A DNA stretch of 64,000 nt from Candidatus Hydrothermarchaeum profundi (GCA_002011125.2 MTMF02000009.1:1850286-1914285), one strand, 5' to 3'; numbered from the stretch's first letter, positions 27,720 to 50,055 are shown. A program made the numbers and translations. The notes: a model not told the origin generated them from the letters alone.

Positions 27720-27761
27720 TTGAAATCCTGTAAAAATAGAAGGAGGGTTAAGTATGAGTAA
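27720..27761 (+). CDS. Candidate leader ORF overlapping the mtbC start
   Basis: TTG at 27720 follows GAGGTGGG with good spacing and opens a 13-codon ORF, MKSCKNRRRVKYE, whose TAA lies inside the mtbC start region (8-base overlap). The mtbC ribosome site GGAGGG is inside this ORF, so its translation could open or block that site. Similar short ORFs precede mttC and the CMD gene. No direct proof of translation. Confidence 0.3.
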   Translation: MKSCKNRRRVKYE

Positions 27762-28401
27762 AGAAGAGATTTTGAAGAAAGCAGCTGACGCTATTTTAAA
27801 ACAAGACGAGAAGGCTGCTGTTGAAGTTGCAAAGGAAGCGTTAGAAGCGGGTTTAGACCCTGTTGAAGTGATTGAAAAGGGATTTACAGAAGGTATCAGA
27901 GAAGTGGGGGACCTCTTCGATAGGGGTAAGCTTTTTCTCCCGCATGTAATGCTATCAGCAGACGCCATGAAAAAAGCCATCGCAGTTCTTGAGCCTGCTA
28001 TCGGCGAAGGTAAGGGAAAAGAAAAAGTGGGGACCGTCGTAATTGGAACCGTTGAAGGAGATATCCATGAAATCGGGAAAGGAATTGTTTCTATCATGCT
28101 TCAAGTGGCTGGATTCGAGGTCCATGACTTGGGTAGGGACGTGCCATTAAAAAAATTCATAGAAGCCGCAAAGGAAACAAACGCCAACATAGTCGGTGCC
28201 TCAGCTTTAATGACGACTTCCTTACCCGGGCAAAAAGAGCTAATAAATCTGTTGAAAGACGCAGGCATCAGAGATAAGGTTAAGATGATGGTAGGGGGTG
28301 CACCTGCCACTGAGAAATGGGCGCAGAAGATAGGGGCTGACGCCTACGCTGAGAATGCCACAGAGGCTGTGGCAAAGGCAAAAGAATTGGTAACATCATA
28401 A
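27754..28401 (+). CDS. mtbC: Dimethylamine corrinoid protein
   Basis: A 215-residue methyltransferase corrinoid protein. The helical cap domain (1-90: EEILKKAADAILKQDEKAAV, LFLPHVMLSADAM) is followed by a B12-binding Rossmann domain with GDIHEIGKGI (about 107-116, the DxHxxG motif whose His binds cobalt), GASALMTTSLPGQ (about 150) and VGGAPATEKW (about 179). It carries the methyl group from MtbB to the downstream acceptor and is kept reduced by RamA. Named from its place directly upstream of mtbB. AAGGAGGGTTAAGT precedes the ATG. Confidence 0.9.
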   Translation: MSKEEILKKAADAILKQDEKAAVEVAKEALEAGLDPVEVIEKGFTEGIREVGDLFDRGKLFLPHVMLSADAMKKAIAVLEPAIGEGKGKEKVGTVVIGTVEGDIHEIGKGIVSIMLQVAGFEVHDLGRDVPLKKFIEAAKETNANIVGASALMTTSLPGQKELINLLKDAGIRDKVKMMVGGAPATEKWAQKIGADAYAENATEAVAKAKELVTS

Positions 28402-28403
28402 GG

Positions 28404-28474
28404 CCTTCAACCCCCAATCGCCGGTTCGAATGGGTCAAAGGGCCTTTGATGAGAACCAGGGTATAGGTTGAAGG
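28404..28474 (+). promoter_or_regulatory. Nested hairpin between mtbC and mtbB
   Basis: Three nested inverted repeats form one long hairpin: CCTTCAAC (28404-28411) with GTTGAAGG (28467-28474), GGTTC (28423-28427) with GAACC (28453-28457), and the palindrome TCAAAGG-G-CCTTTGA (28435-28449). It starts right after the mtbC stop and ends 30 bases before the mtbB start, which has its own AGGAGGTGAAG site. It could stabilise processed transcripts or set the MtbC:MtbB ratio. The other two corrinoid/methyltransferase pairs have only 17- and 35-base gaps and no such structure. Confidence 0.55.
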
Positions 28475-28504
28475 AATATAAAAAAGGAATTAGGAGGTGA
28501 AGTT

Positions 28505-29911
28505 ATGGATTACCGTGTTAGAATTGGAGACGGCTCATTAAAATACCTCTCCAAGAAAGAGATAAAGGAAGACATTGAAGACGGAACCAAGGACGCTGCT
28601 GACCGCGGAGAAATACCAGAACTAACTGATGACGATAAAGAGAGGCTACTTGAAATAGTAACCGAGCCTAATAAGATCGTCAGCGTTTCACCGGGCGAAG
28701 AGGTAGTTATGACAAATGACGTAGGAACACTCACTATCCAAGGTGACCAAGGGAACAGCGGGGTAGGACTACCGCTAGATCGTATACAATGTATACTTAC
28801 TCAAGAGCGTGCTTTTGGATCTGACACAATGGAACTAGCCCACACCGATTACAGCTTCAAACCCGTTAAGCCCATCATAGCAATGGAACAACAAGCTCTC
28901 GAACAGGCAGAACTATTAACAGTGATACCAGTCTTCTATGGAGCAATGCCAAACCTTGGACAGTACTATGTTATAGACGGGCCTTTCCCAAATCCGAATG
29001 ATCTATATAGAGATCTGAAAATAAAAGAAGCTCGCGAGAGCCAGGAGGAATGCGCTGAGCATGCCTCGAACAATATGAGTTGGATAGGTCAAAGACTTTG
29101 GGAGGTAGGATGCGAAGGACTAAACTTCGATACTACCGCCGCAGCCGGAGATACCGACTTCTATGCTACTCTGACAGCTACTGAAGAGTTAAAGAAGACT
29201 ACCTCTGAAATGTGCATAGAAATGGGCATGGCCGCAGAATACGTGCTCGGGATGCATGGGGAGCTAAAATATGGTGGCGAGCTTCTAGCAGGCCTGTATC
29301 CACATCAGCAAGTAAAAGTCGCAGAAAAAGCAGGAGTAGATATATTTGGTCCAGTAGTGAATACCAATACTAGCAAGTCTTTTCCATGGAATATTGCAAG
29401 AGCGCTTACTTTCGTGAAGGAATGCGTAAAACAGTCCAATATACCCATACATGTCAACATGGGAATGGGCGTAGGCGGAATCCCCATGTACGAGACGCCG
29501 CCAGTAGATGCCGTTACAAGGGCTTCTAAGGCAATGGTTCAGATTGCCCACGTCGACGGTATATAGATGGGAGTCGGCGACCCGGTGGGCATGCCTATAA
29601 GCCATATAATGGCATCTGGCATGGGCGGACTTAGAACAGCGGGAGACCTAGTTGCTAGAATGCAGATGAGCAAAAAAATGAGGATTAATGAAGCCAAGGA
29701 GTATGTAGCGAAAAAGCTAAACTTAACTCCAAGCGAGCTCTCAGACGAGTATGTCATGAGAGAAGTGAGAGAAGAGCTGGATATAGGGATTATAACACCA
29801 GTACCGGGAGCAGCGAAAGGGATAGAAGCTAAAGTCAGGATCGCTGAGCTACTGGATATAACTATAAATCCGGTAGAGAGACTAAAAAATAAAGAAAAAT
29901 TCAAAAGCTAA
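28505..29911 (+). CDS. mtbB: Dimethylamine methyltransferase with in-frame amber (pyrrolysine) codon
   Basis: A 468-residue enzyme read through TAG at 29564-29566 (codon 354; M. barkeri MtbB has Pyl at 356). Matching segments: [90 protein letters not shown] before the amber, and [21 protein letters not shown] and [17 protein letters not shown] after it. It moves one methyl from dimethylamine to MtbC. Pyrrolysine binds the amine in the barrel. Without readthrough the product would lack about 114 conserved residues. Two hairpin terminators follow. Confidence 0.95.
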
Positions 29912-29974
29912 GTAACCCTCCGGCCAGTAGCTGGCTATGGGTTACTTTATATCCCCCCAAGCTCTTTGGGGGGA
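29912..29974 (+). terminator. Tandem hairpin terminators after mtbB
   Basis: GTAACCC (29912-29918) pairs with GGGTTAC (29939-29945), followed by TTTATAT; directly after, ATCCCCCCAA pairs with TTTGGGGGGAT (29951-29974), followed by a T-rich tract. Two strong stems in a row point to firm transcription termination of a highly expressed operon. Confidence 0.7.
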
Positions 29975-30060
29975 TTTATTTTCTCTTTGTGTTAAACAAC
30001 TTTTCCAAGCCATATCACTTTCTAAATTTAATGATGTTATAGAGATTTTATATAACCAGT

Positions 30061-30957
30061 ATGTTAGAACTCTACGATAAAGTAAGGAAGGAAATTGTAG
30101 GCAGAGATCGAGAGCTTTTAAGAATTTTATCTGCTTTAGAAGCCAAAAAACATTTGTTACTTGAGGGACCGCCAGGTACCTCAAAGTCAACCATCTTGAG
30201 GACTATAACTAGGCTGTCTAATATCCCTTTTTATCTTTTAGAGGGTAATATCGATTTAACTCCAGCAAAGCTGGTTGGTCACTTTAATCCAGCAGAAGTT
30301 ATATCTGATAATTATAAACCGGAATACTTCAATAAAGGCCCCTTAACAAAAGCCATGGAAGAGGGCGGATTCCTTTATATTGAAGAATTTAATCGAATGC
30401 CGGCAGATGCTACAAATGTGCTATTAGTAGCTATGGAAGAAGGAGAGATAAATATTCCCAGATACGGTAAAGTAGTAGCCAAACCAGGTTTTACCGTGAT
30501 ATGCGCTCAAAACCCTCTTGACGATGTAGGTACTCTTCGTGTGAGCAGAGCATTTCTAGATAGAGTATGCAGAATAAAGCTTGACTATCAATCCGAAGAA
30601 GAAGAAATTAAAATCGTAGAAGAGAGAACAGGAACAAAAAATAAAGACTTAATTAAATTAGCGGTTAAACTGGCAAGAGAAACTAGAGACCATCCCGATT
30701 TGAAATTAGGAGTCTCTATTAGAGGACCTATTGATATGGTTCAAATAGCCGAAAAGATGCTTAGGCTTGATTTAGATGAAAGGGAAGCTCTTTTAGACTC
30801 GATGATGCTGGCTTTCAGCGGAAAAGTATGGCTTGATGAGCTTTCTGAAAAATCTCAAGAAGAGGTCCTAGAAGAAATATTTAATCAAATATATACTCCC
30901 ACGGGCGCTACTAAAAAAAAAGTAAGCCTGGAACTAATAAGAAAGGAGAAGAACTAA
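30061..30957 (+). CDS. MoxR-family AAA+ ATPase
   Basis: A 298-residue AAA+ protein: Walker A EGPPGTSKST (about 37-46), GNIDLTPAKLVGHFNP (about 62-77, typical MoxR insert), Walker B FLYIEEFNRMP (about 104-114), sensor CAQNPLDDVGTLRVSRAFLDRV (about 151-172). The usual lysine of GxGKT is serine-shifted to TSKST, keeping Lys. MoxR ATPases work with VWA proteins as metal- or cofactor-insertion chaperones, and a VWA gene follows directly. The RamA and DUF2284 genes are close by, so a role in maturing methylamine enzymes can be imagined but is not shown. Confidence 0.85.
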   Translation: MLELYDKVRKEIVGRDRELLRILSALEAKKHLLLEGPPGTSKSTILRTITRLSNIPFYLLEGNIDLTPAKLVGHFNPAEVISDNYKPEYFNKGPLTKAMEEGGFLYIEEFNRMPADATNVLLVAMEEGEINIPRYGKVVAKPGFTVICAQNPLDDVGTLRVSRAFLDRVCRIKLDYQSEEEEIKIVEERTGTKNKDLIKLAVKLARETRDHPDLKLGVSIRGPIDMVQIAEKMLRLDLDEREALLDSMMLAFSGKVWLDELSEKSQEEVLEEIFNQIYTPTGATKKKVSLELIRKEKN

Positions 30958-31844
30958 CGCAACTTGAATCTGATGATAGCGAAGAAAAACCAAGCATCGA
31001 TATAGAAAAAGAATTCGAAAAATCCCCATATCATCTCGCGAAATACTTCAATGCTAATCCTGAAGAACTAGCGAAGGTATTCAGTTCTAAGAAAGCTCTT
31101 AAGATATATGGCGATATTTCCAGCATGCTTAAACCTGAAACAAAAGAAATAGCAAAGAAGTATATTAGGAGGCTCATTATAAAACTTGGAGTATCGCTGG
31201 CCAATCCAGGATATCAGCGAGATAAGATTGTTCCCTTGAATGATATAACACTATCAGACGATATCGAGATAGATAGAACAATCGAGAAAATTATACAGGC
31301 CCCGGAACTTCCCTTAGAGGATAACATCACCGTTTTAGGCAGAAAGAAGAAGAAACAAGATATCGTGCTAATGTTAGATAGGAGCTTTTCTATGAAGGGG
31401 ATCAAAACCGTCTTGTCAGCTATAACTGCCTCTGCGATTTCTTTACATTTTAAGGGGAATGTATCTGTCCTATTTTTTAACGATAAATCAAAATTCATTA
31501 AAAAAAGAAACCAAAAGATGGTTTTAGATTCTATAGTAGATAAGATTCTCGATTTAGATGTAGAAGGAGGAACAAATATAAGGAAAGCCCTTGAAATGGG
31601 CCTACAAGAAATATCATCCTCAGACAAAAAAAGAGGACTACTTCTTACAGATGGTAACTGGACGGTAGGAGCTAATCCCTTAAGTGTGGCACAGAAGTAT
31701 GATAAGCTAGACGTAATCTGCTTCCCACCAGCTAATAGTGAGAAATCCAAGCTTTTAGCATTAAAAGGAAACGGAACCCTAGAATATGTTGAAAGGGAAG
31801 AGGATATTTTCAGAGCAATATTAAGCTGCCTACGGCTAAACTAG
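30957..31844 (+). CDS. VWA-domain partner of MoxR with unusual start
   Basis: The VWA domain (IVLMLDRSFSMKGIKT, a MIDAS D-x-S-x-S; GGTNIRKALEMG; LLTDGNWTVG) is clear. An in-frame coding stretch runs upstream without ATG, GTG or TTG back to 30915. The first ATG, at 31125, would leave that stretch untranslated. The MoxR stop overlaps an ACG as TAACG at 30955-30959, just where TAATG is expected, 8 bases after AGGAG; I take ACG as a possible start (about 295 residues). Alternatives are start at 31125 (239 residues) or a -1 slip on the nine-A run at 30913-30921, fusing MoxR and VWA. Ends in TAG. Confidence 0.7.
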   Translation, partial: TQLESDDSEEKPSIDIEKEFEKSPYHLAKYFNANPEELAKVFSSKKALKIYGDISSMLKPETKEIAKKYIRRLIIKLGVSLANPGYQRDKIVPLNDITLSDDIEIDRTIEKIIQAPELPLEDNITVLGRKKKKQDIVLMLDRSFSMKGIKTVLSAITASAISLHFKGNVSVLFFNDKSKFIKKRNQKMVLDSIVDKILDLDVEGGTNIRKALEMGLQEISSSDKKRGLLLTDGNWTVGANPLSVAQKYDKLDVICFPPANSEKSKLLALKGNGTLEYVEREEDIFRAILSCLRLN

Positions 31845-32425
31845 TTTTTCATATTATATCCGATGAGCAGAGTACCGTCCTTGCTTTTCTCGCAACCCAG
31901 TAAACGCTTCAAGTATTCATCAGAAGGTGTACAAGGGCTACCTGATACTATATCTTCAAGCTCTTCAAATTCCTGGAGCTCTGGAAAAGGAAGAGGCGGC
32001 ATAAGAAAATAAGGCTTTCCTTTTGGAAGTTTATTCTTATACAGTACAAAGTCAGGACCCATAAAAATAACATCTTTCCTTTTTTTCATTTCTTCCAGCT
32101 TTTTGGATCCAACCCATTCTCCAAGAATCTCCCCATCTTCGTCAACCATTACCACCCACGGGCGGGAGGGTTCCCTAAATGTTTTATCAAATAATATCAC
32201 CCATGTCTCGTCCCTTGATAAAGCCTCGAAAGTACCCTCGTTTAAAAAGTCCATCATGCCTTGTACCGCCCCTCTCTCCTGTGCTTTCTTCTCAAGCCTC
32301 AAAATCTCCTCTTTTTCATCCTGGGTAAGAAGTCTTACATCCAGTACTCCTTTAAGGTTCCTAAGCCTAAACATTATCCTTTCGTGGAGGTCTTTTGTTA
32401 CTCCACTAGTACTAGGCCGTTCCAT
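31841..32425 (-). CDS. Hypothetical soluble protein
   Basis: A 194-residue protein without membrane segments, rich in Glu and Lys, with VVMVDEDGEILGEWVGSKK near the middle and a Cys pair near the C-terminus (GSPCTPSDEYL, LLGCEKS). Family not recognised. Its start lies inside the end of the DUF2284 gene (28-base overlap), so the two are an operon. It shares the tetranucleotide CTAG with the convergent VWA gene: both end in TAG there. Confidence 0.45.
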   Translation of the reverse strand: MERPSTSGVTKDLHERIMFRLRNLKGVLDVRLLTQDEKEEILRLEKKAQERGAVQGMMDFLNEGTFEALSRDETWVILFDKTFREPSRPWVVMVDEDGEILGEWVGSKKLEEMKKRKDVIFMGPDFVLYKNKLPKGKPYFLMPPLPFPELQEFEELEDIVSGSPCTPSDEYLKRLLGCEKSKDGTLLIGYNMKN

Positions 32426-32994
32426 CTTACATTCTCCTGCGAAGATAATCCTAATGGCATGCCTATGTTTTTACAGGTCCTATAAACATCTATCCCTACA
32501 CCTTCTAACGAGGGTCTGGCCTTAAAAGGTTGATGACATAACTCCCCTTTTTTAGGGTCAGCGCACTCCTCGCAAAGCTTACAATTACCGCCAATCAGTC
32601 CCGTAGCAAGATAGTAGCCCAGCTTAAAAGCTTCTCTTTCGACTGCATTAACTATCTCATGCAACTTAAGCTCATACTTCTCATAAACCTCTTTCTCAAG
32701 TTTATCCACAAGATTTTTAGAAATAGGCTCATTTGACTTATCTAAAGAATCAACGTTCTCCATCTCAAGCTGAATGAATATTGCCTTTTTATACTTTGAT
32801 AAAATCTTCCTAAATTCATCAAATGGTATGGAATTAGGAGGACAGAAATAATATCTATTATATCCATCGCATGGGGGTACCTGACACTTTAATAAAACCC
32901 GCCTATCCATTACTATCGATCCCACATCAATAATCTTCGCCCTAGTAGCCCCTTCCCTTAGACTAACCTCTACGAGCTTCTCAAGCTTATTCAT
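32398..32994 (-). CDS. DUF2284 predicted metal-binding protein
   Basis: A 198-residue cysteine-rich protein. Segments CQVPPCDGYNRYYFCPPNS (about 38-56), GGNCKLCEECADPKKGELCHQP (about 131-152, split for length in the family) and the ending GIDVYRTCKNIGMPL match the DUF2284 family, thought to bind iron-sulfur clusters or other metals. The ATG at 32992-32994 follows AGGTGGGATTC; longer reading to 33075 overlaps the promoter of ramA. DUF2284 proteins are frequent in methylotrophic and methanogenic archaea and acetogens. Confidence 0.78.
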   Translation of the reverse strand: MNKLEKLVEVSLREGATRAKIIDVGSIVMDRRVLLKCQVPPCDGYNRYYFCPPNSIPFDEFRKILSKYKKAIFIQLEMENVDSLDKSNEPISKNLVDKLEKEVYEKYELKLHEIVNAVEREAFKLGYYLATGLIGGNCKLCEECADPKKGELCHQPFKARPSLEGVGIDVYRTCKNIGMPLGLSSQENVRWNGLVLVE

Positions 32995-33113
32995 TGAATC
33001 CCACCTAAATATTATTTTCCGAGTCCTACTACTCAGATAAACATTAACAAGCCTAAAAAAATTTTCTAGAAACAATTTTATTTTTCGAAGGCAATATTCG
33101 ATGCTGATAGTTT

Positions 33114-34745
33114 ATGAAGAGGTACGGGATTGCTTTGGATATGGGCACTAGCGGTTTCCGCGCCCAAGCGATAGATTTGGATGAGGGGGAAATAATCTCA
33201 ACATCAATTACTCTGCGACATCCTATACCCGGAGCTAACGTTATGGACCATGTGACTTTCGCAATAGACGTTGGAACTGATATAACCCACGACCTAATAG
33301 TAATGACAGTAAACAAGCTAATAACAACCCTAAAAATTGACCCGACAAGAGTAGAAAGACTAGCGGTATGTGGTAATCCCTTTCAGCTTTCACTTTTCCA
33401 AAAACTTGAGATACGAGACCTAGCATACGCGGGGGAATCTAAATTAAAGGCTTTAGGAGTAAAACCGCCTAAAAGAGATGCGACCATAATGGATGCCGAA
33501 ACTATTGGACTCAATATAAACCCTGAGGCAAATGTGCTTATACCCCCAGCGGTAAAACATGAAATAGGAGCAGATGCCTTAGCAATGATGCTAAAAACAG
33601 ATTTCCTCGAAAATTCGCCAAGTATAGTCACAGACTACGGAACTAATGCAGAAATGGCGCTAAATGTAGATGGCCAGATATATTCAGGATCTGCTGCCGC
33701 AGGTCCTGCCCTAGAGGGACAACAAATTAAGGAGGGCATGCTAGCTGCTCCAGGTGCTATATCTGATGTAGATCCTGAAGACTCAAAATGGCGTTGCTCC
33801 GTTTTAAGTAAAGAGCTAATGGCTGAAGAGGGAGACCTAATAGATCCCCGCACTGGAGAAATATTTAAAAAAGGGGTCATGCACGGCAAAGTAAAAGGAA
33901 TAACCGGTACTGGCGTTATAGCTGCTATCGCTAGAGGACTACAAGAAGGGTTGGTTGTACCACCAAAGATTAAGACTCCAGACAATAAGGTCCACCTTCA
34001 AGATGGTATTACGATAACTGAGGATGACATAGTCGAGGCTGGAAAAGCTATAGGAGCTATTAGAGCAGGCCATATGACGTTGATAAATGAAGCTGGAATA
34101 AGTATGGAGGAAGTTGAAACAGCCTATATGGCTGGCGCCTTAGGAACGTATGTAGATGCAATTAAAGCTCAGAAAGTAGGCCTAGTGCCATCTACGTGCA
34201 AAAACCTAGTGCAAGTCGGAAACACCTCTCTTTCACTAGCGAGGGATCTGATTTTTGAACCTGAAAAGCTTGAAGAACTCCAAGATTACGCAAACAAGTT
34301 AAGGGCAAAACATGTTATGTTCGCGATATCAAATACCTTCAGAAACATCTTCGTTATAGAGCTTTCTCTTTGGACTGAAGGAATGCCCTTCAGCATGTAT
34401 AATGACATGTTAAAGATGTATAAATTACCGCCAATACCTATGAAGAATGTCAATGCAAAAGTGAATAAAATTGTTCAGAGAGATATTCCAATACTGGGTA
34501 AATATGGAATCACCGTTGTTGAAGATGTAGGTATAATTCTTTCAACTAGAGTATCAGAGTGCATTTACTGTAAAAAATGTATTAGAGAATGTCCTGAGGA
34601 GGCAATAGAGATAATAGAAAAAGATGGTAAGCGAATAGCATTAATAAGATCTGATAAGTGCAATGGAACAGCGTGTCGAAGGTGCGAGATAATTTGTCCT
34701 AAAAATACCCTTAAGCTAAGAGAACTAAAGATAAATACAACCTAA
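33114..34745 (+). CDS. ramA: Corrinoid protein reductive activase RamA
   Basis: A 543-residue RamA. The N-terminal ATPase/ASKHA-like region shows ALDMGTSGFRAQAIDL (about 7-22) and VTDYGTNAEMAL (about 170); the C-terminus has two 4Fe-4S motifs, CIYCKKCIRECPEEAIE (about 484) and CNGTACRRCEIICPKN (about 510). RamA reduces Co(II) corrinoid proteins to active Co(I) with ATP for all three methylamines. The second cluster motif is CNGTAC..C...CP, as in M. barkeri RamA. A TATA-like AATTTTATTTTTC lies about 40 bases before the ATG. It converges with mtmB. Confidence 0.93.
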   Translation: MKRYGIALDMGTSGFRAQAIDLDEGEIISTSITLRHPIPGANVMDHVTFAIDVGTDITHDLIVMTVNKLITTLKIDPTRVERLAVCGNPFQLSLFQKLEIRDLAYAGESKLKALGVKPPKRDATIMDAETIGLNINPEANVLIPPAVKHEIGADALAMMLKTDFLENSPSIVTDYGTNAEMALNVDGQIYSGSAAAGPALEGQQIKEGMLAAPGAISDVDPEDSKWRCSVLSKELMAEEGDLIDPRTGEIFKKGVMHGKVKGITGTGVIAAIARGLQEGLVVPPKIKTPDNKVHLQDGITITEDDIVEAGKAIGAIRAGHMTLINEAGISMEEVETAYMAGALGTYVDAIKAQKVGLVPSTCKNLVQVGNTSLSLARDLIFEPEKLEELQDYANKLRAKHVMFAISNTFRNIFVIELSLWTEGMPFSMYNDMLKMYKLPPIPMKNVNAKVNKIVQRDIPILGKYGITVVEDVGIILSTRVSECIYCKKCIRECPEEAIEIIEKDGKRIALIRSDKCNGTACRRCEIICPKNTLKLRELKINTT

Positions 34746-34775
34746 ACACTTCTTCAAAGAAAAAATAAAAAATAA

Positions 34776-34792
34776 GGGGAGAAATCCTCCCC
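34776..34792. terminator. Bidirectional terminator between ramA and mtmB
   Basis: GGGGAG and CTCCCC with a five-base loop. On the minus strand it is followed by a long T-rich run, on the plus strand by a short AT-rich tract, so it can serve both convergent genes. Confidence 0.6.
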
Positions 34793-34812
34793 AAAGAGTA
34801 TATTCTTTACCT

Positions 34813-36192
34813 CTACTTGATGTCAACGCCGAGTTCCCGTAGAGTGTTCACGGCCTTATCATACACCTGCAGGTGCTCCTCAGTAGGAACAACCTTAACC
34901 ACGTCATAACACTCCTGGAACCTCTTACCCTTAGGCGCCGTCTTATAGTCACTCTCGTACTTCTTAATCAAATTATCCAAGATCACGTTAACCTCACTGA
35001 TATCCATGCCAGCCACAGCAATAGCCGCCTCACCCATAATCCGGGCCTCCATACCAGTCGTATAATCCAACGCAACGCCCTTAGCACTAGCACTACCACT
35101 AACAAGCTCACGGCCACTAGCAGTGTCAGTAATAGCCTGAGCAGCCGTCTCCAACAAACACATCTCAGTACACGGACCCGCCAACGGATAATACTGGTTC
35201 GAAGTCAACAAATGAGTATTCTCATCAATAGCCCTAGCCGTATGCCCAGCCACCTGCAGGGTCTCACGCGCAGTAGTGATACCCCACCTGATATGGATAG
35301 GCCCATCCAAGTGATAACTCCCATTCAACAAGGTGAAGCTCGTCAAATGAGTAGCCACGTTACAGATCGAGGTCTCCTCGACCCCGCCAGCATAGCCACC
35401 AAAGATAGGCATCTGCTCCACCATAATAATATCACCATTCTGAACCCAACCAGCAATCATATGCAGGCCACCATTATCAATCTTAAGCTCATTCAACTGA
35501 CTGATCTCATGGCTATCACAAGGCCTCAAGCCACCCAGGAGATCCCCGGCAAGACGCCCCGCACTCGTCAAGGGCGTCTCTGGGCCCTAAACCGCCATAT
35601 AGGGTCTCCCAGCCTTACGACAAGCCTCACGGATATAATACAACTCAAACAGAGTAGCCTTAATCTCCCAAGGACTACCGCTAGTAGCCTCATTACCCTC
35701 AATAGTAGCCAACACACCATTCACAATAGTATCCACCGTAGGCTCCTGAGCATAACTCTGAAACATCGGGATAAAAATATCCTCACTAACAGGAGCACCC
35801 GTAGGACCGCCCTGAATAACAGGCTTAAAACCAGGATTACCACGACGCTGCGCCATATCCACTGCGTCCTGATACTCGCCCAACACGAGCTTCCTAGGCG
35901 CCTTCTTAATAGACTCAAGAACCTCGTCCTCAGAGACCCTGATAACCCTTCCGGTGTCAATATTATAGATCCCAGTCTCCACCAACATCTCCAAGCCGGC
36001 CTGGAACAAGTTATCAATCAGCTCACTGTCCGTAGGAATAATCTCACCCGAAAACTTGATGTTATACTTCTCCTTCATCTTAGCAGCATTCTGCGGGATA
36101 ATCTTATAATCCCAGTCACGCTCACTAACCTTCTCCCCACTAATCGACCTATTATAGGTCTCATACACATCTAAAGGCCTACCAACCGCCAA
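34813..36192 (-). CDS. mtmB: Monomethylamine methyltransferase with in-frame amber (pyrrolysine) codon
   Basis: A 459-residue enzyme read through TAG at 35587-35589, which is codon 202, exactly the pyrrolysine position of M. barkeri MtmB. The sequence around it reads GRPYMAV, then the amber, then GPETPLTSAG. Other matches: IVQGGPTG-like VIQGGPTGAPVSEDIF, VDTIVNGV, SHEISQLNELKID, EQMPIFGGYAGG, HLDGPIHIRWG, NQYYPLAGPCTEMCLLE and TGMEARIMGE. It moves the methyl of monomethylamine to MtmC. TTG start after GGAGGTGAG. Codon use is strongly C-ending, a sign of high expression. Confidence 0.95.
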
Positions 36193-36227
36193 AACAACTC
36201 ACCTCCAACAATAAACAATTATTATCC

Positions 36228-36872
36228 TTAGTCGCCAACAAGCTCCTTCGCAATCCTCACAGCCTCAGCACCATTCGGACAATAAGCGTCACCGCCAATC
36301 TCATCCACCCACTCCTGGTTAACAGGCGCACCGCCAAACAACGTCTTCACCTTATCCCGGATCCCAGCCTCCTTCAAAGCCTTAACAATCTCCCTCTGAC
36401 CAGGACGCGTAGTAGTCATAAGAGCACTAGCACCAACGATATCAGCATTAACCTCCTTAGCGGTCTCAACGAACTTATCGATAGGAGCATCCCGGCCAAT
36501 ATCAATCACATCAAAGCCAGCGCCCTGAAGCATAGCAGCAACAACGTTCTTACCGATCTCATGGATATCCCCCTCAACAGTACCGATAACCACTACCTTA
36601 CCCATCTTCTCCCCAGACTCCATGATCTTAGGCTTCAAGACCTCAAGACCCGCCTGCATAGCCTCCGCAGCCATCAAGATCTGAGGCAAAAAGATCTTGG
36701 CCTCATCAAAAAGGTCGCTGATAGTCATCATACCCCTACCCAAGCCGTCATTAATAGCCTCAAAAGGCTCAATGCCCGCCTCCAACGCCTCCTTAGCCGC
36801 AGAGCTAGCCAAGTCAGCATCATAGGTCTCCACGGCTTTCTTCAACTTATCAAGAATCTCCTGCTTAAACAA
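36228..36872 (-). CDS. mtmC: Monomethylamine corrinoid protein
   Basis: A 214-residue corrinoid protein like MtbC: helical cap (1-90, KIFLPQILMAAEAMQAG) and B12 domain with GDIHEIGKNV (about 108), GASALMTTTRPGQ and FGGAPVNQEW. It accepts the methyl group from MtmB. It starts at TTG after GGGGGTGAT and lies 35 bases before mtmB and about 100 bases after the small membrane protein of the Amt module. Identity as MtmC follows from this position, since the corrinoid proteins are alike. Confidence 0.9.
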   Translation of the reverse strand: MFKQEILDKLKKAVETYDADLASSAAKEALEAGIEPFEAINDGLGRGMMTISDLFDEAKIFLPQILMAAEAMQAGLEVLKPKIMESGEKMGKVVVIGTVEGDIHEIGKNVVAAMLQGAGFDVIDIGRDAPIDKFVETAKEVNADIVGASALMTTTRPGQREIVKALKEAGIRDKVKTLFGGAPVNQEWVDEIGGDAYCPNGAEAVRIAKELVGD

Positions 36873-36978
36873 GCCAAATCACCCCCGAATCCAAAAAACC
36901 TTTTTCTTAATTTATTATATGTTCTTATGGTTTAAATGTTACGGTTCCAAAAAAATAAAAAAAAGGAAGAAAGGGAAA

Positions 36979-37245
36979 TCACTCGGATTTCTCGGTTGCT
37001 TTTTTGAGTTCTTCTATGAAGCCCTCATAACCAGGCAACGTCCCTTCTTCCAGCCATTTATCCACAGCTTCTTCGTATTCCTGGTTTTCCATTTTAATCT
37101 GCCAGTAGTGCCACCAGATCCAGAGTAGTGTTGAGATTGCTACGAAGAGTTTTGTCAAACCCCACAGAGGCGATACAACCTCCATGTTCTCTGCACCAGT
37201 CCAGTCTGTTACTCCTGTTGCAATTAACAGCATTATGCTTACCAT
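36979..37245 (-). CDS. Small membrane protein of the methylamine transporter module
   Basis: An 88-residue protein with two hydrophobic stretches (SIMLLIATGVTDW; GLTKLFVAISTLLWIWWHYW) and an acidic cytoplasmic tail. It overlaps the Amt-like gene by 7 bases and lies just upstream of mtmC on the same strand. I do not recognise the family; an accessory subunit of the transporter is the natural guess. Confidence 0.55.
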   Translation of the reverse strand: MVSIMLLIATGVTDWTGAENMEVVSPLWGLTKLFVAISTLLWIWWHYWQIKMENQEYEEAVDKWLEEGTLPGYEGFIEELKKATEKSE

Positions 37246-38843
37246 CTCAACTCACCTCGTTCCTCAAACTCTTTTTGTAGCCTTATAGCATCCTTTATTA
37301 AGTCCTCTGGACTCGGCACTCCGAGGTAATCTTTTCTACCAGTGTCTTTACTGTACGCATTGATATTCAATAGTAGGTTTCTCCCAGGCTTAGAACCCTG
37401 CTTAGCTTTTAATAGGATTCTATGAGCCTCGATTCCCTGGACCTTATCGATCTCCGAGAAGTCCTCTGGCCTGTATGGTGGGAAATACGGGTACATTTCA
37501 CCGACTGCTGGAGAAGCTATATCAAGTCCTGCAAGCTCTACTAGCGGTGGAACTCTGAGTAATCCTAGCTTCTTGAATATCCAGCTAGCACCAAAGCCGA
37601 AGAGGAATGCCCAACCTGCTTCCCAAACTGCAAGCATGAAATTACCCCAAGGCGTGGTTACCCCTTGTAGTTCGTCGAAACCAAGAGGACCTCCTCCGGC
37701 AGGATATCCCCAAAGCAATATGCCTGCATATATAAGTCCTAGTACTCCCGAATAGCCGTGGACAGCACACGCTCCTACTGCGTCGTCGATCTTGAATCTC
37801 TTTTCTACCCAGTAGTGTAGCTTATATATTATTGGAATGGTTATGAACCCTAGGAGAAACGCTTGCATCGGGTGATAAAGATCGTTTCCTGCCGAGGCTG
37901 CGATGACTCCAGCAAGCCCTCCTGAAAAAATCCAGAAGGGATTCCCTTTGCTCGCGAAGAATCCTCCCATGAAACCTCCGGTTAGAGACAATAAGAAGTT
38001 GGTCCCAATAGCAGAATTACTTGTTGGATTACCATATATGTTAACCGTTCCCCAATAGGACATCTCCATTGTCGGATCCCATGCTAGGGCTGTCGGTATG
38101 TTGCAAGCAAAATAGAATCCCCAGAACCCTGTATATATAAGGAACAATCCTATACATGTCAACCACTGGTTGTGGAGAGGGACATCCCTTGGATTTCCCT
38201 TTTCATCGAATCTTCCAATTCTAGGTCCCAAGTTTATTAGAACTCCAAGAGTATACCATCCCGCAATAGTGTGGATAATGCCACTAGCGTATGCATCGTG
38301 AGAGCCAAAGTATTTTACAGTCCATCCCCAGGGAGACCACGCCTGAGATGCTAGCCAGATCCATACAAAGGACCCTAGGAATACTGACATTAACAAAAAT
38401 GCTCCTACTCTGCACCTTTCAATAACCGCACCAGAAAGGATTGAGCCCTCTGTCAGAGAAAAGAGCAGGAACGCTGCCCAGAATGCTAACATAAAGTGGT
38501 CCTGCATATGCGTTGTCATCAATGGACTCCACGGAGCATAATCGGCTGGATCAACTATCTCTGGATATTGCCCTGGTATCAGGAAAGTGGACCAATGAGG
38601 ACCTGAGAATGCTGCATACACCCACCATCCGAAGATATAGAACGTGAAGATGATGAGTGGGAACAGCATTGCATTTTTCATCAGCGTATGACCAACGTTC
38701 TTCCTTCTAGACACCCCGACTTCGTATGTACAGAATCCTACGTGTATCAGGAACATGACTATCACTGTCACCCAGTAATACCACTCCTGATACAGATACG
38801 CTAACTGCCATATTCTTTCAGCTAGCGGATACGGTTCTACCAT
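37239..38843 (-). CDS. Amt/Rh-family transporter, probably for methylamine or ammonium
   Basis: A 534-residue membrane protein of the Amt superfamily, about 100 residues longer than usual because of a soluble C-terminal tail. Signatures: SLTEGSILSGAVIERCRV (about 128-145, the AERM region), IIHTIAGWYTLGVL (about 190, first His of the twin-His pair) and DDAVGACAVHGYSGVLGLIYAG (about 353, second His). In canonical Amt the first site reads DxAGxxxVH; here it is HDAYASGIIH. Placed upstream of mtmC-mtmB, it most likely takes up methylammonium, an ammonium analogue. ATG at 38841-38843 follows AGGAGGTG. Confidence 0.82.
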   Translation of the reverse strand: MVEPYPLAERIWQLAYLYQEWYYWVTVIVMFLIHVGFCTYEVGVSRRKNVGHTLMKNAMLFPLIIFTFYIFGWWVYAAFSGPHWSTFLIPGQYPEIVDPADYAPWSPLMTTHMQDHFMLAFWAAFLLFSLTEGSILSGAVIERCRVGAFLLMSVFLGSFVWIWLASQAWSPWGWTVKYFGSHDAYASGIIHTIAGWYTLGVLINLGPRIGRFDEKGNPRDVPLHNQWLTCIGLFLIYTGFWGFYFACNIPTALAWDPTMEMSYWGTVNIYGNPTSNSAIGTNFLLSLTGGFMGGFFASKGNPFWIFSGGLAGVIAASAGNDLYHPMQAFLLGFITIPIIYKLHYWVEKRFKIDDAVGACAVHGYSGVLGLIYAGILLWGYPAGGGPLGFDELQGVTTPWGNFMLAVWEAGWAFLFGFGASWIFKKLGLLRVPPLVELAGLDIASPAVGEMYPYFPPYRPEDFSEIDKVQGIEAHRILLKAKQGSKPGRNLLLNINAYSKDTGRKDYLGVPSPEDLIKDAIRLQKEFEERGELRW

Positions 38844-39274
38844 AGAATACACCTCCTAATCGTTTCCTCCCCCCTTAGGTACTTCCCTTCTATCACTTAA
38901 GCACCTCCTACTAACCTCTTTGGACTAGGCAAGTTGGGGTTTAGTGGGTTATGTTATTTAAAATTTTCTATTTTGAATTGTAGTGAATATGATTCTTTTT
39001 CTTAAGAAATGTATTAATTAATGCTATTATCAAGTTAAAATACTTTATAAAATCTGAAAATTAAAAATAAATAACAATATGATATTGTTAGCTAAAATAA
39101 TTCTTATTTAATCTTTAAAATATTCCCTTAGAAGGTAATGTAACGAAAATTAAAATATCCCATAACATCACGCACCAGCTTCTTATTTTCAGCTTACTTT
39201 AGTAGTGTAAGCAAAAAGTTTTTATGATGACTCATAGAATCATGGGAAGTTAGAAAATAGAATACTGTGATATC
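38844..39274. other. Long AT-rich intergenic region upstream of the Amt-like gene
   Basis: No gene is seen in these 431 bases. The part next to the Amt-like gene (38860-38960) is richer in G and on the minus strand contains a second AGGAGGTG with no useful ORF after it. The rest is very AT-rich and holds a perfect palindrome at 39072-39090. The length suggests a regulated promoter for the amt-mtmC-mtmB operon. Confidence 0.5.
39072..39090. promoter_or_regulatory. Perfect 9-1-9 palindrome, operator candidate
   Basis: TAACAATAT-G-ATATTGTTA is a perfect 19-base palindrome in the AT-rich gap between the Amt-like gene (minus strand) and the DUF4013 gene (plus strand). It fits a dimeric repressor site. 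It lies about 230 bases from the Amt-like start. No other copy was noticed in the window. Confidence 0.35.
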
Positions 39275-39892: not shown

Positions 39893-39940
39893 GATTTCTT
39901 GAGTCAACTTTTATTATATTCTCTTTCTCTATCATAGGAT

Positions 39941-42429: not shown

Positions 42430-42455
42430 GAGCACTGTGTAGAGAAAAAGGTCTT

Positions 42456-43793: not shown

Positions 43794-43805
43794 CTCACTA
43801 ATCTA

Positions 43806-43879
43806 GGGCGGGTGGTCTAGATGGTTATGACGGCAGTCTCACACACTGCAGGTCGAGGGTTCGAATCCCTCCCCGCCCA
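43806..43879 (+). tRNA. tRNA-Val (CAC)
   Basis: A 74-base cloverleaf: acceptor GGGCGGG/CCCGCCC with discriminator A, anticodon arm GCAGT-CTCACAC-ACTGC (anticodon CAC), T arm GAGGG-TTCGAAT-CCCTC. No encoded CCA and no intron. It stands between the surface protein and an alcohol dehydrogenase gene. Confidence 0.93.
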
Positions 43880-43967
43880 TATATCTGAGTCATCAACTGA
43901 GTTAATAGATTTGACTTAAGAAAAAGAGCATACGGCAAGGCATCTACGATAAAAGATTTTAACTACG

Positions 43968-44966: not shown

Positions 44967-45011
44967 TGGTTATACACATCCTTGATGTGACTATTAAGGC
45001 TTATTGAAAAC

Positions 45012-45767
45012 TCAACGTATTAGGAGTACGTTAGTCTTTGCGTTTTCTAGCACGTAGAGAGACACATGCCCTAATAAGGCCCTCTCTAATTTGCCAAGAC
45101 CTCTAGGAGCTAATGCAACCAGGTCATAATGATTCGCGTTTTGAAGAATTACATCTCTAACCTGGCCCCCCTCTATCAGCTTTTTCACATTCTTTATCGA
45201 GAGCTGATTTAACATTTCTGCTGCCTTATTTACCGCTTCCTCTCTCTTTTTCTGCTCTTTATTTTCCCTAGCTACCGACAAAACCGTTATTTCTCCTTCT
45301 AAGCCCTTAGCAAACATGCCTGCAAATTTCACGGCACGGCTTGAATGCTTACTCCCATCTGTACAAACGAGGATTTTCTCTAACTTATCCCCCTTACGGT
45401 ATATTAACGTTGGAATATGGGAGTATTCAGCGATTTTTTTTGTAAGTTTTTTATCAGTATCTTTCATTAAAAGTAAATCATAGTGTTTTTCTGCCTCATC
45501 AAGAACCTGTGAGGCAACCGCTCCTCCTCTTTTAAGCATTACAACTTCCTCGCCAAGGCACTTTATTATCTTTTTTAGTGCTTTTTTCTCTTCTTCAGGT
45601 ATTTTTCCAAGTTGTATGCTAAAAGGAGAGTAATATTTCTGCGTTATATCACTTCTAACACATAGCGCTGTTATTTTTCCTTTTAGTGAGGTACAGAGTT
45701 TCATCGCAATTCTAACAAGCCCTTCACTCTCCTGGTAAGGGGGACATAACATAAGTAATATATGCAT
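45012..45767 (-). CDS. Tandem universal stress protein
   Basis: A 251-residue protein of two UspA-type halves. The second (about 125-251) is clearer: EKILVCTDGSKHSSRAVKFA at its start and APRGLGKLERALLGHVSLYVLENAKTNVLLI at its end with the GxGxxxxxLGHVS ATP-binding motif. The first half (HILLMLCPPYQESEGLVRIA) is more divergent. Its start shares one base with the stop of the SulP transporter, so it may regulate that transporter or respond to the same signal. Confidence 0.8.
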   Translation of the reverse strand: MHILLMLCPPYQESEGLVRIAMKLCTSLKGKITALCVRSDITQKYYSPFSIQLGKIPEEEKKALKKIIKCLGEEVVMLKRGGAVASQVLDEAEKHYDLLLMKDTDKKLTKKIAEYSHIPTLIYRKGDKLEKILVCTDGSKHSSRAVKFAGMFAKGLEGEITVLSVARENKEQKKREEAVNKAAEMLNQLSIKNVKKLIEGGQVRDVILQNANHYDLVALAPRGLGKLERALLGHVSLYVLENAKTNVLLIR

Positions 45768-47500
45768 CAGCTCACTCTCACCTTCTCACATTCGTTGAAT
45801 ACGTTTTTACTACATTCTCTACAAATACTTTTATCTAAGTAATAGTTAAAAGCACTTGAGATTGCCTCCTTCTTTGTCTCATGTACTTCTAGGTGCTCAA
45901 TCAGTCCTTCTTTTGACAGCGAGTTAACAATCTCTTCTTCAACATGGATGAGTATGAGCCTTATATTTCTCCTTTCCATCTCATCTACTAAATCTCTAAG
46001 GGCTTCGATTCCTGAGGTGTCCATATAATAGACTGCAGCCATATCTATTATAAGACATTTCATACGATTGCATTTTTCAACTAAATGTAAGATTTCGTCT
46101 CTAATTTGCTCGGCGTTAACAAATATAAAAGGTCCTTCTGGTTTTATTATGAAAAGCTGATCGCACCAGCTTTTTGGCTCTTCAGGTATGGAAATAAAAT
46201 ATCCTGTTTCTTTATCTCTCACAGTAAAATAGATCTTGGTATGCATCGTCTTCCACAAATGAAGAGCGAGAGCTAATACCACGCCTACTATTAGACCGGT
46301 GTCGGGCTTTGTAATTATAGAAACTCCGAAGGTAGTGAAAGCTACCAAGCCGTCATATCTATTTATCCTGTATATCTCCAAAAGTTGCCTTGGCTTAAAA
46401 AGCTTCATTACAGCTAAGATAACGATTACAGCTAAGATGAACTTTGGAAGATAATAAAAGAGAGGTGTTAAAACAGTGATCGAGAGTAATACGAAAAAAC
46501 TGAATATTATTATAGACATGCCAGTACGTGCACCGCTTGACCAATTAACACTAGTACCCGAAAAGCTTCCACAAACAGGATATCCTTGGAAAAGAGAAGT
46601 TAATATATTTGCCAGACCTTGAGCTCTAAATTCTTGTTCAAAATCTACTTTCTCTTTTGTATGATAGATTATAATCTTGGAAATAGAGTATGTTTCAGTC
46701 ATGCCAACTATTGCGATAAGTGCTGCTGACAGCAATAACCCCGGGATGTTAGAAAATCCTGTAATATCCGGAAGAGTGGGCATAGGAAAACCCTTGGGCA
46801 ACGCTCCAACTATCTCTACCCCCGTCTTCTCCATACCAAAGAGGTACACCACAAAAGTAAAGAAAATCAGCATAGTTATTATATCAGGAAACTTTGGATA
46901 GCGTTTCCGGACGAATATCATCACCAAAAAACTGGCTAATGACAGAGAAAATACTAGGACATTAATATTTGAAAGATTATTGACAACATTCAAAAGCATA
47001 AGTATTACATAATCTTCATTAGAACCATGTAACCCTAGGATATATCTTAGCTGAGTTATGGTGATTATTAATGCGGCAGCATTTACAAATCCTATAACAG
47101 CGGCGTGAGAGATAAGATGGAGGATAAATGTCAGATGAAGAACAGCAATGCTCAAAATTATAACACCGACCATTAAGGAAAGCAACGCCGCTAAAGATAC
47201 ATACTCATTTGATCCCGGTTGAGCTATTGGTGAGAGAGCTGTAAACACAAGCATTGTCATAACACCTACAGGTCCTGTAAAAAGTAAGCGGTTACTCCCA
47301 AATAATATACTAACGAGCGGTGCTACGAAACTGGCATATAGTCCATAAATTGGAGGCAACCCCGCAACGAGAGCATACGCCATAGCCTTCGGTATCATGC
47401 TAACGCCTAAGGATACCCCCGCCACAAAATCGAAATACAGATACCTAGACTTATAATTTTTCAACCAAGTGAGTGCCGGTATAAGTTTTTCAAGGTTCAT
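45767..47500 (-). CDS. SulP-family anion transporter with STAS domain
   Basis: A 577-residue protein. Ten or more membrane helices with FDFVAGVSLGVSMIPKAMAYALVAGLPPIYGLYASFVAPLV-type SulP start (about 23-65), FQGYPVCGSFSGTSVNWSSGARTGMS (about 303-328), and a STAS domain (CLIIDMAAVYYMDTSGIEALRDL, about 478-500). The substrate may be sulfate, bicarbonate or another anion. A Cys-rich tail (CRECSKNVFNECEK) is unusual. First gene of a two-gene operon with the tandem Usp. Confidence 0.88.
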   Translation of the reverse strand: MNLEKLIPALTWLKNYKSRYLYFDFVAGVSLGVSMIPKAMAYALVAGLPPIYGLYASFVAPLVSILFGSNRLLFTGPVGVMTMLVFTALSPIAQPGSNEYVSLAALLSLMVGVIILSIAVLHLTFILHLISHAAVIGFVNAAALIITITQLRYILGLHGSNEDYVILMLLNVVNNLSNINVLVFSLSLASFLVMIFVRKRYPKFPDIITMLIFFTFVVYLFGMEKTGVEIVGALPKGFPMPTLPDITGFSNIPGLLLSAALIAIVGMTETYSISKIIIYHTKEKVDFEQEFRAQGLANILTSLFQGYPVCGSFSGTSVNWSSGARTGMSIIIFSFFVLLSITVLTPLFYYLPKFILAVIVILAVMKLFKPRQLLEIYRINRYDGLVAFTTFGVSIITKPDTGLIVGVVLALALHLWKTMHTKIYFTVRDKETGYFISIPEEPKSWCDQLFIIKPEGPFIFVNAEQIRDEILHLVEKCNRMKCLIIDMAAVYYMDTSGIEALRDLVDEMERRNIRLILIHVEEEIVNSLSKEGLIEHLEVHETKKEAISSAFNYYLDKSICRECSKNVFNECEKVRVS

Positions 47501-47834
47501 TTATATTCCCTAAGTAACCTCCCATGCAACACCCTTTAACATTCAAAAGTAAATTATCCTACATCAAAAATCATGATATCGGAATCACCGGAATTCATAT
47601 CAATCATAAATACTTAAAGTTTACTACTATTCTTTAGTTTCTTCCTATTATCCAAAACCGCCTTCATAAGACTTTTATATCACAAAAAAAGAAAAAAAAT
47701 AGAGGTGGATTTTTTGAATTTAAATCTTCATTTAGATAGGGTTAGATGGGGGTATTAGACGGAAAATTTTAAACATTTTTTACATAATATTACGCGTTTT
47801 ATCGCTATCCTTATGCTTATGTATTATCTAAAAA
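47501..47834. other. Intergenic region upstream of mttC
   Basis: No gene is seen. AT-rich DNA with several TATA-like stretches (TTTTATATCAC at about 47690, CATAATATTACG at about 47784). At 47703-47710 a GAGGTGG precedes a short TTG reading of no clear value. The region separates the divergent sulP and mtt operons and probably carries both promoters. Confidence 0.4.
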
Positions 47835-47906
47835 ATGAACGCACTAAAAGAGTCCCAAAAGGAGGTGGACTTATCGGATATTAAATGTAAGGAGGTATAC
47901 CCATGA
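47835..47906 (+). CDS. Candidate leader ORF overlapping the mttC start
   Basis: ATG at 47835 opens 23 codons (MNALKESQKEVDLSDIK, then CKEVYP) and ends in TGA that overlaps the mttC start (ATGA). The mttC ribosome site AAGGAGG lies inside it, as does a second AAAGGAGGTGG. A TATA-like tract lies about 25-40 bases upstream, so this ATG may be the first codon of the mRNA. Translational coupling to mttC is likely if it is translated. Confidence 0.35.
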   Translation: MNALKESQKEVDLSDIKCKEVYP

Positions 47907-48553
47907 GCAAAGATGAGATAATAAAGGCGGCTAAAGAAGCCATCCACAGCTTTGATGCAGACAAAGCAGTGGAAGTTGCAAAAAAAGCTATAGAAGAGGG
48001 GGTTGACCCAGTAGAGGTCATTGAGAAAGGCTTCACAGTAGCGATGCGTGAAGTAGGAGACCTATTCGACCAAGAGAAACTATTTCTCCCTCACGTTATG
48101 GCAGCAGCAGAAGCTATGAAAGCGGCTATAAATGAGCTTACTCCCCATATTAAAGCAGGAGCAAAAACCTCTGAAGCCATGGGCACCGTAGTAATAGGAA
48201 CAATTGAAGGGGATATCCACTCTATTGGTAAAGATATTGTTGCAACCATGCTAAAGATAGCCGGGTTTGATGTCTACGACTTAGGTAGAGACGTACCGTT
48301 AACGGAATTTGTAAACAAGGCAAAGGAAGTAAACGCCAACATCGTTGGAAGTTCTGCTCTGATGACAACAACCATGCCCAACCAAAAAGCTCTAGAAGAA
48401 TCCTTGAAGAGGGCAGGTATTAGAGAGAAAGTTAAGACAATGGTAGGTGGAGCACCAGCTACACAAGAATGGGCAGATAAAATAGGGGCTGACGCTTACG
48501 CTGAGAATGCAAGTGAGGCTATTCTTAAAGCCAAAGAGCTAGTTACAAAATAA
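47903..48553 (+). CDS. mttC: Trimethylamine corrinoid protein
   Basis: A 216-residue corrinoid protein: cap domain (LFLPHVMAAAEAMKA, about 52-66) and B12 domain with GDIHSIGKDIVATML (about 108-122), GSSALMTTTMPNQ and VGGAPATQEWADKIG. It shares many identical segments with MtbC at 27754, which points to duplication. It takes the methyl group from MttB. It lies 17 bases upstream of mttB. Confidence 0.92.
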   Translation: MSKDEIIKAAKEAIHSFDADKAVEVAKKAIEEGVDPVEVIEKGFTVAMREVGDLFDQEKLFLPHVMAAAEAMKAAINELTPHIKAGAKTSEAMGTVVIGTIEGDIHSIGKDIVATMLKIAGFDVYDLGRDVPLTEFVNKAKEVNANIVGSSALMTTTMPNQKALEESLKRAGIREKVKTMVGGAPATQEWADKIGADAYAENASEAILKAKELVTK

Positions 48554-48570
48554 AGAAGGAGGTGAAATAA

Positions 48571-50055
48571 TTGAAAGAAGTTTTAGAGGCAGGTGTCGAC
48601 AGACTTTACGGGGCAGGATTAAACCTGTTTACTAAAGATGAACTCTACGCAATACACGAGGCTACTATGGACGTACTAATGGACCCGGGTATTATGGTTA
48701 CAGAGGAAGACGCTAGAAAAGTATTCGAAGAAAACGGGTGCATTGTAAACCACAAAGAGAAAAACGTTAAGATCCCAGAATATCTCGTGAGAAGAGCTTT
48801 ACAGACCGCTCCATCGAAGTTCCTATTAGCTGGTAGAGATAAGAAATTCGACGTAGTACAAGAAGCAGGAAAAAAAGTAAACTTTACAACCTTTGGTACA
48901 GGAGTAAGGGTCTTTAGATTTATAAATGGCAAACCAACTATCCGAGACTCAACCGAGGCAGATATCGCAGAAACTGCTATTTTAACAGACTGGTGTGAAA
49001 ATATAGAGTACTTTTCTTTACCTGTGTCTGCAAGAGACTGGTCAGACAAAGGAGCACAAGATGTCCATGAGCTTTTCACGTCACTGACAAATACGGCAAA
49101 ACACTTCCAGCATATTGACCCCGTAGGAGATAACATCGACATATACTATGAAATGGGAAAAGCCTTCTACGGAGGCGATGAAGAAGAGTTTAGAAAAAGA
49201 CCGATCTTTTCAATACTCTTATGCCCAACCAGCCCACTGCAACTCCACGATAATGGTACTAAAGTTATCATGAAAGGGGCAGATTATGGAATACCCGTCA
49301 ATGTATTAAGCATGGCTATGTCTGGAGCTACATCTCCTGTACATTTAGCTGGGACTCTAGTAACTCACAACGCTGAAGTACTTGCAGGAATAGTACTATC
49401 ACAACTATACCGCCCTGGAGCACCGGTTTGGTATGGTAGCTCAACTACTACCTTCGACTTAAAAAAAGGAACAGCCCCGGTTGGATCCCCCGAGCTGGGA
49501 TTAATCAGTGCGGCGGTGGCACAATTAGCCCAATATTATGGGCTCCCAAGCTTCGTCGCCGGCACTTAGGCTGATTCCAAAATACCGGATGCACAGGCGG
49601 GCCATGAGAAAACAATTACCACCCTGCTACCAGCTTTGGCAGGTGCCAATACAATATACGGTGCAGGAATGCTTGAGTTGGGCATGACGTTTAGCAGCGC
49701 CCAACTATTGATTGACAACGATATCATCCAAATGGTCCGCAAGGCTGTGCTTGGAATAGAGGTTTCTGAGGAAACTCTTTCTCTAGATGCCATAAAGAAA
49801 GTGGGTATAGGAAAGGACTTTCTAGCTTTGAAACAGACTAGAGACCTAATTGACTTACCCTCGGCGCCTTTGTTGATAAATAGGCTTATGAGGGGAGATT
49901 GGGAGCGTGCCGGCAGTAAAGATCTAGCGACCGTCGCACAGGAGAAAGCTGATGAAATAGTTAAAACACATGAAGTACTGCCGATCGATAAAGACATTCT
50001 AAAGGAAATGGAGAGTGTTCTTAAAAAAGCGGATAAAGCTGCGATATCGGCATAA
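48571..50055 (+). CDS. mttB: Trimethylamine methyltransferase with in-frame amber (pyrrolysine) codon
   Basis: A 494-residue enzyme read through TAG at 49567-49569 (codon 333; M. barkeri MttB has Pyl at 334). Sequence around the amber is PSFVAGT, then Pyl, then [15 protein letters not shown]. Other matches: [65 protein letters not shown] before it and [23 protein letters not shown] after it. Start is TTG after AAGGAGGTGAAATAA. It transfers a methyl from trimethylamine to MttC. Non-pyrrolysine MttB-like enzymes lack the amber, so this one is a true MttB. Confidence 0.95.

Follow-up and report, generated by a model that had tools for sequence, protein, structure and literature searches.

Pyrrolysine-dependent methylamine genes in an archaeon, probably a non-methanogenic hydrothermarchaeon, with sulfate/sulfite-reduction genes and UAG stops

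Introduction

Among the archaea described as using methylamines with the help of pyrrolysine (Pyl), the one closest to the subject of this work is Candidatus Hydrothermarchaeum profundi JdFR-18. The DNA considered here is a stretch of 64,000 nucleotides (MTMF02000009.1:1850286-1914285, hereafter "the window"), which encodes three methylamine methyltransferase units between positions 27754 and 50055. JdFR-18 has a genome of 2.06 Mb with a G+C content of 39.1%, mtrH, methylamine-type methyltransferases and more than one kind of dsrA, and it lacks mcr (Carr 2019, PMC6775978). It has also been reported to use mono-, di- and trimethylamine, a capacity regarded as a lateral gain (Zhou 2020, PMC6946796), and to have a Pyl cluster (Sun 2021, PMC9723677), sat/apr/dsr genes (PMC6759336) and a pyrrolysyl-tRNA synthetase split into PylSn and PylSc (Guo 2022, cited in PMC9499178). 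Such split PylSn and PylSc have been reported in 7 of 75 archaeal genomes (PMC11764691).

The genome to which the window belongs (2.19 Mb in 19 contigs, 97.65% complete) shares with JdFR-18 the methylamine methyltransferases, mtrH, copies of dsrA and other dsr genes, the absence of mcr, the Pyl cluster with separate PylSn and PylSc, a G+C content of 39% and a size of about 2.1 Mb. These shared features make Ca. Hydrothermarchaeum profundi, or an organism very closely related to it, the most likely host, and this bears out the "Hydrothermarchaeota-like" host proposed in an earlier note on this DNA. Given this match, the Pyl methylamine system is not newly discovered: it is essentially already known, its core facts having been published for JdFR-18. 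The assemblies differ in contiguity, as that of JdFR-18 comprises 22 contigs with a longest one of 364 kb and the present one 19 contigs with a longest one of 1.92 Mb; this single large contig gives cleaner linkage and lets stop codon usage be measured. The stop usage reported below (about 18% TAG, with a terminal TAG in mtmB) is new detail, and it makes the genome a useful case for how UAG is read both as stop and as Pyl.

The methyltransferase units and the pyrrolysine machinery

The window very probably carries the substrate half of a complete Pyl-dependent methylamine catabolism in a non-methanogenic hydrothermarchaeal archaeon that also has sulfate/sulfite-reduction genes. When the frames of mtbB, mtmB and mttB are read with TAG as a residue, each is open with a single internal TAG, and the family matches of the read-through proteins span this codon over nearly their full length; frames and family matches thus agree on the three positions that the earlier note had singled out (Table 1). 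Judged from the sequences, it is not by chance that three different families each show a TAG at their Pyl position. Each methyltransferase gene has a corrinoid-protein gene directly upstream, and the three corrinoid proteins all exceed the cut-off of the pyl_corrinoid family (TIGR02370), MtbC and MttC being 69% identical to each other. The activator gene ramA lies among these units, as had been noted before. Rfam models PYLIS_2 and PYLIS_3 match at the TAG codons of mtbB (29564-29663) and mttB (49567-49666), respectively, and since these models overlap coding sequence they add little to the protein homology.

Table 1. Methylamine genes and the adjacent transporter gene in the window
Gene	Predicted product	Length (aa)	Position	Strand	Evidence
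mtbC	dimethylamine corrinoid protein	215	27754..28401	+	TIGR02370 271 bits (above cut-off); NF041607 MtbC 287 bits
mtbB	dimethylamine methyltransferase	468	28505..29911	+	TAG 29564-29566 = codon 354 (Pyl); TIGR02368 679 bits, residues 2-461
ramA	reductive activator of corrinoid proteins	543	33114..34745	+	TIGR04270 791 bits, cut-off 500
mtmB	monomethylamine methyltransferase	459	34813..36192	-	TAG 35587-35589 = codon 202 (Pyl); Pfam MtmB 770 bits, residues 7-455
mtmC	monomethylamine corrinoid protein	214	36228..36872	-	TIGR02370 252 bits; directly upstream of mtmB
	divergent Amt-family transporter	537	37239..38852	-	upstream of mtmCB, same strand; Pfam Ammonium_transp 170 bits
mttC	trimethylamine corrinoid protein	216	47903..48553	+	TIGR02370 278 bits
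mttB	trimethylamine methyltransferase	494	48571..50055	+	TAG 49567-49569 = codon 333 (Pyl); TIGR02369 707 bits

The earlier note had pointed to pylSTBCD as genes to be looked for elsewhere in the genome, and a complete cluster is found on the window's own 1.92-Mb contig, where the PylSc gene lies about 0.53 Mb from the window. At this locus (L060) pylT, pylSn, pylSc, pylB, pylC and pylD follow one another compactly on one strand. The product of pylT (L060 10583-10652) has the anticodon CTA and a fold consistent with tRNA-Pyl, with one base between the acceptor and D stems, a 5-base D loop and a short variable loop. PylSn (97 aa, 97 bits) and PylSc (277 aa, 295 bits) are encoded by separate genes, and these two proteins, together with PylB, PylC and PylD, all exceed their NCBIfam cut-offs. 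The predicted reading of the three UAG codons as Pyl is supported because a complete pyl cluster with tRNA-Pyl resides on the same contig.

Fate of the methyl groups

In the proposed pathway, PylB, PylC, PylD, PylSn plus PylSc and tRNA-Pyl would supply the Pyl-tRNA that decodes the single internal UAG of the mtmB, mtbB and mttB messages. These enzymes would bind their amine via Pyl and pass its methyl group to the Co(I) of MtmC, MtbC and MttC, respectively, while RamA would reactivate oxidised corrinoid. The methyl group on these corrinoid proteins would then move to tetrahydromethanopterin (H4MPT), most likely through MtbA-type enzymes that form methyl-coenzyme M (methyl-CoM) and then an MtrH-family enzyme with a soluble corrinoid protein, or else by direct MtrH-family transfer. 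The resulting methyl-H4MPT would either be oxidised via Mer and Mtd, sulfate or sulfite taking up the electrons, or be condensed to acetyl-CoA by carbon monoxide dehydrogenase/acetyl-CoA synthase (CODH/ACS).

The gene content of the genome bears on each of these steps. No match to mcrA was found in the genome at E <= 0.001, nor any to mtrA, with positive controls in both cases (M. jannaschii and M. acetivorans for mcrA, methanogens for mtrA); of the mtr genes, which the earlier note wished to see sought, only the mtrH family turned up. There are two of them, clustered with two corrinoid proteins, an AcsV-like activator and MtaA/CmuA-family methyltransferases, and one of the MtrH proteins scores 305 bits against MtgA (glycine betaine methylcorrinoid:tetrahydrofolate methyltransferase), under the cut-off of 550. 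Two copies of mer exceed the cut-off, mtd and a MetF-type reductase are encoded within the window itself, and cdhC (678 bits) and the CoM-synthesis gene comD/E are found in the genome. So is dsrA, with three dsrA/dsrB-like pairs (G000 C9:126293-128411, 741986-744147 and 1019519-1020743), the third of which lies about 2 kb behind a full-length aprA-like gene. Given that mcrA and mtrA are absent and that mtrH-family genes, mer, mtd, cdhC, dsrA and the aprA-like gene are present, methyl-H4MPT followed by oxidation or by acetyl-CoA formation is the fate predicted for the methyl groups, which most likely enter the H4MPT-linked Wood-Ljungdahl pathway and do not end up as methane. Their oxidation is probably coupled to sulfate/sulfite reduction.

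The earlier note had also wished to see mtbA sought; MtaA/MtbA-type genes are present, none of whose products reaches the MtbA equivalog cut-off of 600. One such gene is divergent from the pyl cluster, 158 bp beyond pylT, and its product falls short of both equivalog cut-offs, with 345 bits for MtaA (cut-off 400) and 290 for MtbA. A second MtbA-like protein, encoded in the MtrH cluster, is 61% identical to it. Two MtaA/CmuA subfamily proteins exceed their subfamily cut-offs while staying below that of the MtbA equivalog. The presence of comD/E and of the MtbA-type genes favours CoM as an intermediate, and the lack of mtrA together with the MtrH-corrinoid cluster would allow a direct methyl route without CoM.

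Several points weigh against the pathway as drawn. In an assembly of 19 contigs that is 97.65% complete, the lack of mcrA and mtrA is strong and not absolute evidence; the aprA-like gene scores below its cut-off; the specificity of the MtbA-like protein cannot be told from that of MtaA on these scores; and, with about 18% of the genes ending in TAG, efficient suppression would extend many proteins.

Instead of respiring methyl groups, the cell might use them mainly for acetogenesis or assimilation, with methyl-H4MPT and CO or CO2 being condensed to acetyl-CoA by CODH/ACS and no respiratory oxidation. This alternative is supported by the cdhC score and by the JdFR-18 literature, in which methyl compounds enter the Wood-Ljungdahl pathway and acetogenesis is considered (PMC6946796). 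It is nevertheless rather unlikely, as mer, mtd, dsrA and the aprA-like gene make up an oxidative route with an acceptor, although both routes may run together.

The methylamines of sulfate-rich settings are commonly regarded as food for methanogens. A hydrothermarchaeon that lacks MCR and combines a full Pyl set with genes for sulfate/sulfite reduction is a candidate competitor for these compounds.

The cluster around the two MtrH-family genes (L065, G000 C9:1583001-1603000, at 1734-17537, with the MtrH-family genes at 9155-10075 and 11158-12105) is a second corrinoid C1 cluster of the genome. Its MtaA/CmuA-family proteins number four, and it also encodes a binding protein of the sulfonate type that resembles SsuA/SaoX; its substrate is possibly a sulfonate or a methoxy compound.

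UAG as a stop and as a sense codon

Stop codon usage was derived from 344 genes of at least 120 aa in 422 kb, picked by a simple selection of open reading frames on codon usage, so that the counts carry some error. TAG terminates 63 of these 344 genes as sampled; three of the 63 are Pyl codons, and after their removal the share is 60/341, or 18%, compared with 28% predicted from composition alone. G050, a Pyl-encoding archaeon with the same G+C content as this genome (39.4%), ends only 10 of 163 genes (6%) with TAG, so that TAG use here is three times as high (Fisher p 3e-4 for TAG vs other stops and 2e-5 for TAG vs TGA). The TAG:TGA ratio is no different from that in the Pyl-less relatives G009 and G021 taken together (p 0.85, with just 51 genes) and somewhat lower than in G013 (52% G+C, p 0.02). 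Back-up stops within five codons are not in excess behind TAG ends (27%, vs 29% for TAA and 36% for TGA), and the approximately 422 kb of sampled sequence yielded no further Pyl genes. At three loci (L078, L079 and L061) a long, coding-like stretch behind TAG had been a candidate for such a gene and proved to be an adjacent gene in the same frame; at L078, a single TAG separates two distinct in-frame enzymes.

These figures bear on a full reassignment of UAG, in which every terminal TAG would be a sense codon for Pyl. The end of mtmB is compatible with it: the terminal codon of this gene, on which the earlier note had not remarked, is also TAG (34813-34815, minus strand), and in its context, AAG TAG AGG TAA, reading the last TAG would add just two residues. 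The share of TAG ends, its likeness to the Pyl-less relatives and its excess over G050, the missing excess of back-up stops and the TAG between two enzymes at L078 all speak against it, making full reassignment highly improbable. Since mtmB has both an internal Pyl UAG and a terminal TAG, the UAGs of a single transcript presumably have two different meanings, for which a conditional supply of Pyl is the simplest candidate explanation.

Put together with the pathway, this leads to a picture that is offered tentatively, as it is somewhat doubtful in its entirety: all three methylamines may be respired with sulfate/sulfite by way of soluble MtrH-family and corrinoid proteins to H4MPT, without MCR or MtrA, in a cell where UAG still acts as stop in about 18% of the genes including mtmB, so that its meaning would depend on context or on a conditional supply of Pyl.

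Origin of the system

Neither a PylS above its cut-off nor a Pyl-type MttB was found in any of 22 relatives of the same class (0/22 for each), and the only other genome of the set with a true PylS is G050, which is related at the domain level only and has a fused PylS. Occurrence in just one genome among 23 of the class fits either the lateral gain proposed in the literature or a large number of losses. The MttB of the window shares 65-70% identity with the MttB proteins of Methanosarcinaceae, whereas these reach at least 71% with one another, and PylSc is 37% identical to the PylS of G050; the genes have therefore not been copied recently from the Methanosarcinaceae sampled. In an unrooted tree of 20 MttB sequences the window protein forms a long branch among the Methanosarcinaceae groups, a placement that cannot decide the direction of transfer.

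The same comparisons are relevant to the classical function of such genes, methylotrophic methanogenesis of the Methanosarcinales or Methanomassiliicoccales type with methyl-CoM reduced by MCR. Methylotrophic methanogens typically have the three pairs of corrinoid-protein and methyltransferase genes, ramA, an MtbA-type gene and comD/E, as this genome does, and the MttB identity to Methanosarcinaceae points the same way. Against this stand the lack of mcrA and mtrA, the presence of dsrA and aprA-like genes and the low identity of the split PylS to the fused one of its distant relative G050, so that methanogenesis retains very little probability. The host belongs neither to the Methanomassiliicoccales, which the earlier note had excluded, nor to the Methanosarcinales, within which a placement of all markers would have refuted the note: it has no mcrA, and its PylS is split, being neither fused nor devoid of PylSn.

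An assembly or binning chimera of methanogen genes with a hydrothermarchaeal genome, which the 0/22 occurrence of PylS and Pyl-type MttB in the class might suggest, has next to no probability, because the window and the pyl cluster share one 1.92-Mb contig with rRNA genes (the 16S gene partly off the contig end), Wood-Ljungdahl and dsr genes, the window MttB falls outside the sampled Methanosarcinaceae by identity, and the same traits have been published for the independent JdFR-18 assembly.

In an unrelated archaeon, a 140-aa frame (L109, G044 C63:5798-6205) whose match to trimethylamine methyltransferase is confined to the N-terminal 136 positions is a possible remnant or contig-edge piece.

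Layout and neighbouring genes

The earlier note had described the units as dispersed over 22 kb and both strands, unlike tight operons. The layout is as stated, and the contrast with operons was over-read, as it is only weakly informative: on the Methanosarcinaceae contigs compared, too, a distance of about 0.7-6 kb separates mtbB or mtmB from mttB, and the genes are not always in one operon, so three units within 22 kb on both strands are not unusual. In the sequences upstream of mtbC, amt, mtmC, mttC and ramA and in the gap between pylT and the MtbA-type gene no common regulatory motif was found, just A/T-rich 8-9-mers in three of these six regions.

Upstream of mtmCB, the Amt-family protein scores 169 bits against TIGR00836, under the cut-off of 343, and has 6eu6 as its best solved relative (E 1.6e-23); that it might import methylammonium is a guess from its sequence and position. 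Between mtbB and ramA (30061-33075) are encoded a MoxR AAA ATPase, a CoxE-like VWA protein, a DUF2284 metal-binding protein and a 194-aa protein without family matches, which could be a cofactor-insertion module. MoxR, VWA, DUF2284 and Amt were not found as conserved neighbours of mttB or mtmB in the loci of G050 or in 56 comparison loci, which come almost only from Methanosarcinaceae and include no hydrothermarchaeal record. Beside the mttCB region, positions 51205-53781 encode a large multi-PAS sensor protein with no clear histidine-kinase call.

Comparison with known systems

With regard to the enzymes, Methanosarcina barkeri (mtmCB/mtbCB/mttCB, mtbA, ramA, pylTSBCD) has the same set, with MtbA-type genes here in the place of mtbA, the same Pyl positions and the same activator. 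However, MCR and MtrA are missing here, and genomes of the Methanosarcinales type combine a fused PylS with low TAG use, such as the 6% of G050. Separate, adjacent genes for PylSn and PylSc, as observed here, are also found in the bacterial-type PylSn+PylSc class, whereas the present host is an archaeon. With regard to physiology, the Sifarchaeia (Asgardarchaeota, PMC9723677) are likewise non-methanogenic archaea with Pyl machinery, no Mcr and a proposed H4MPT route; they have MtbA, to which MtbA-type genes correspond here, and they use UAG as a stop in about 20-21% of cases, compared with about 18% here. They differ in that PylSn is lacking, pylS lies apart from pylBCD, UAG occurs in MtbB only and MtrAH is present, whereas the hydrothermarchaeal genome has three UAG-containing enzymes, a compact pyl cluster, a split PylS and no mtrA.

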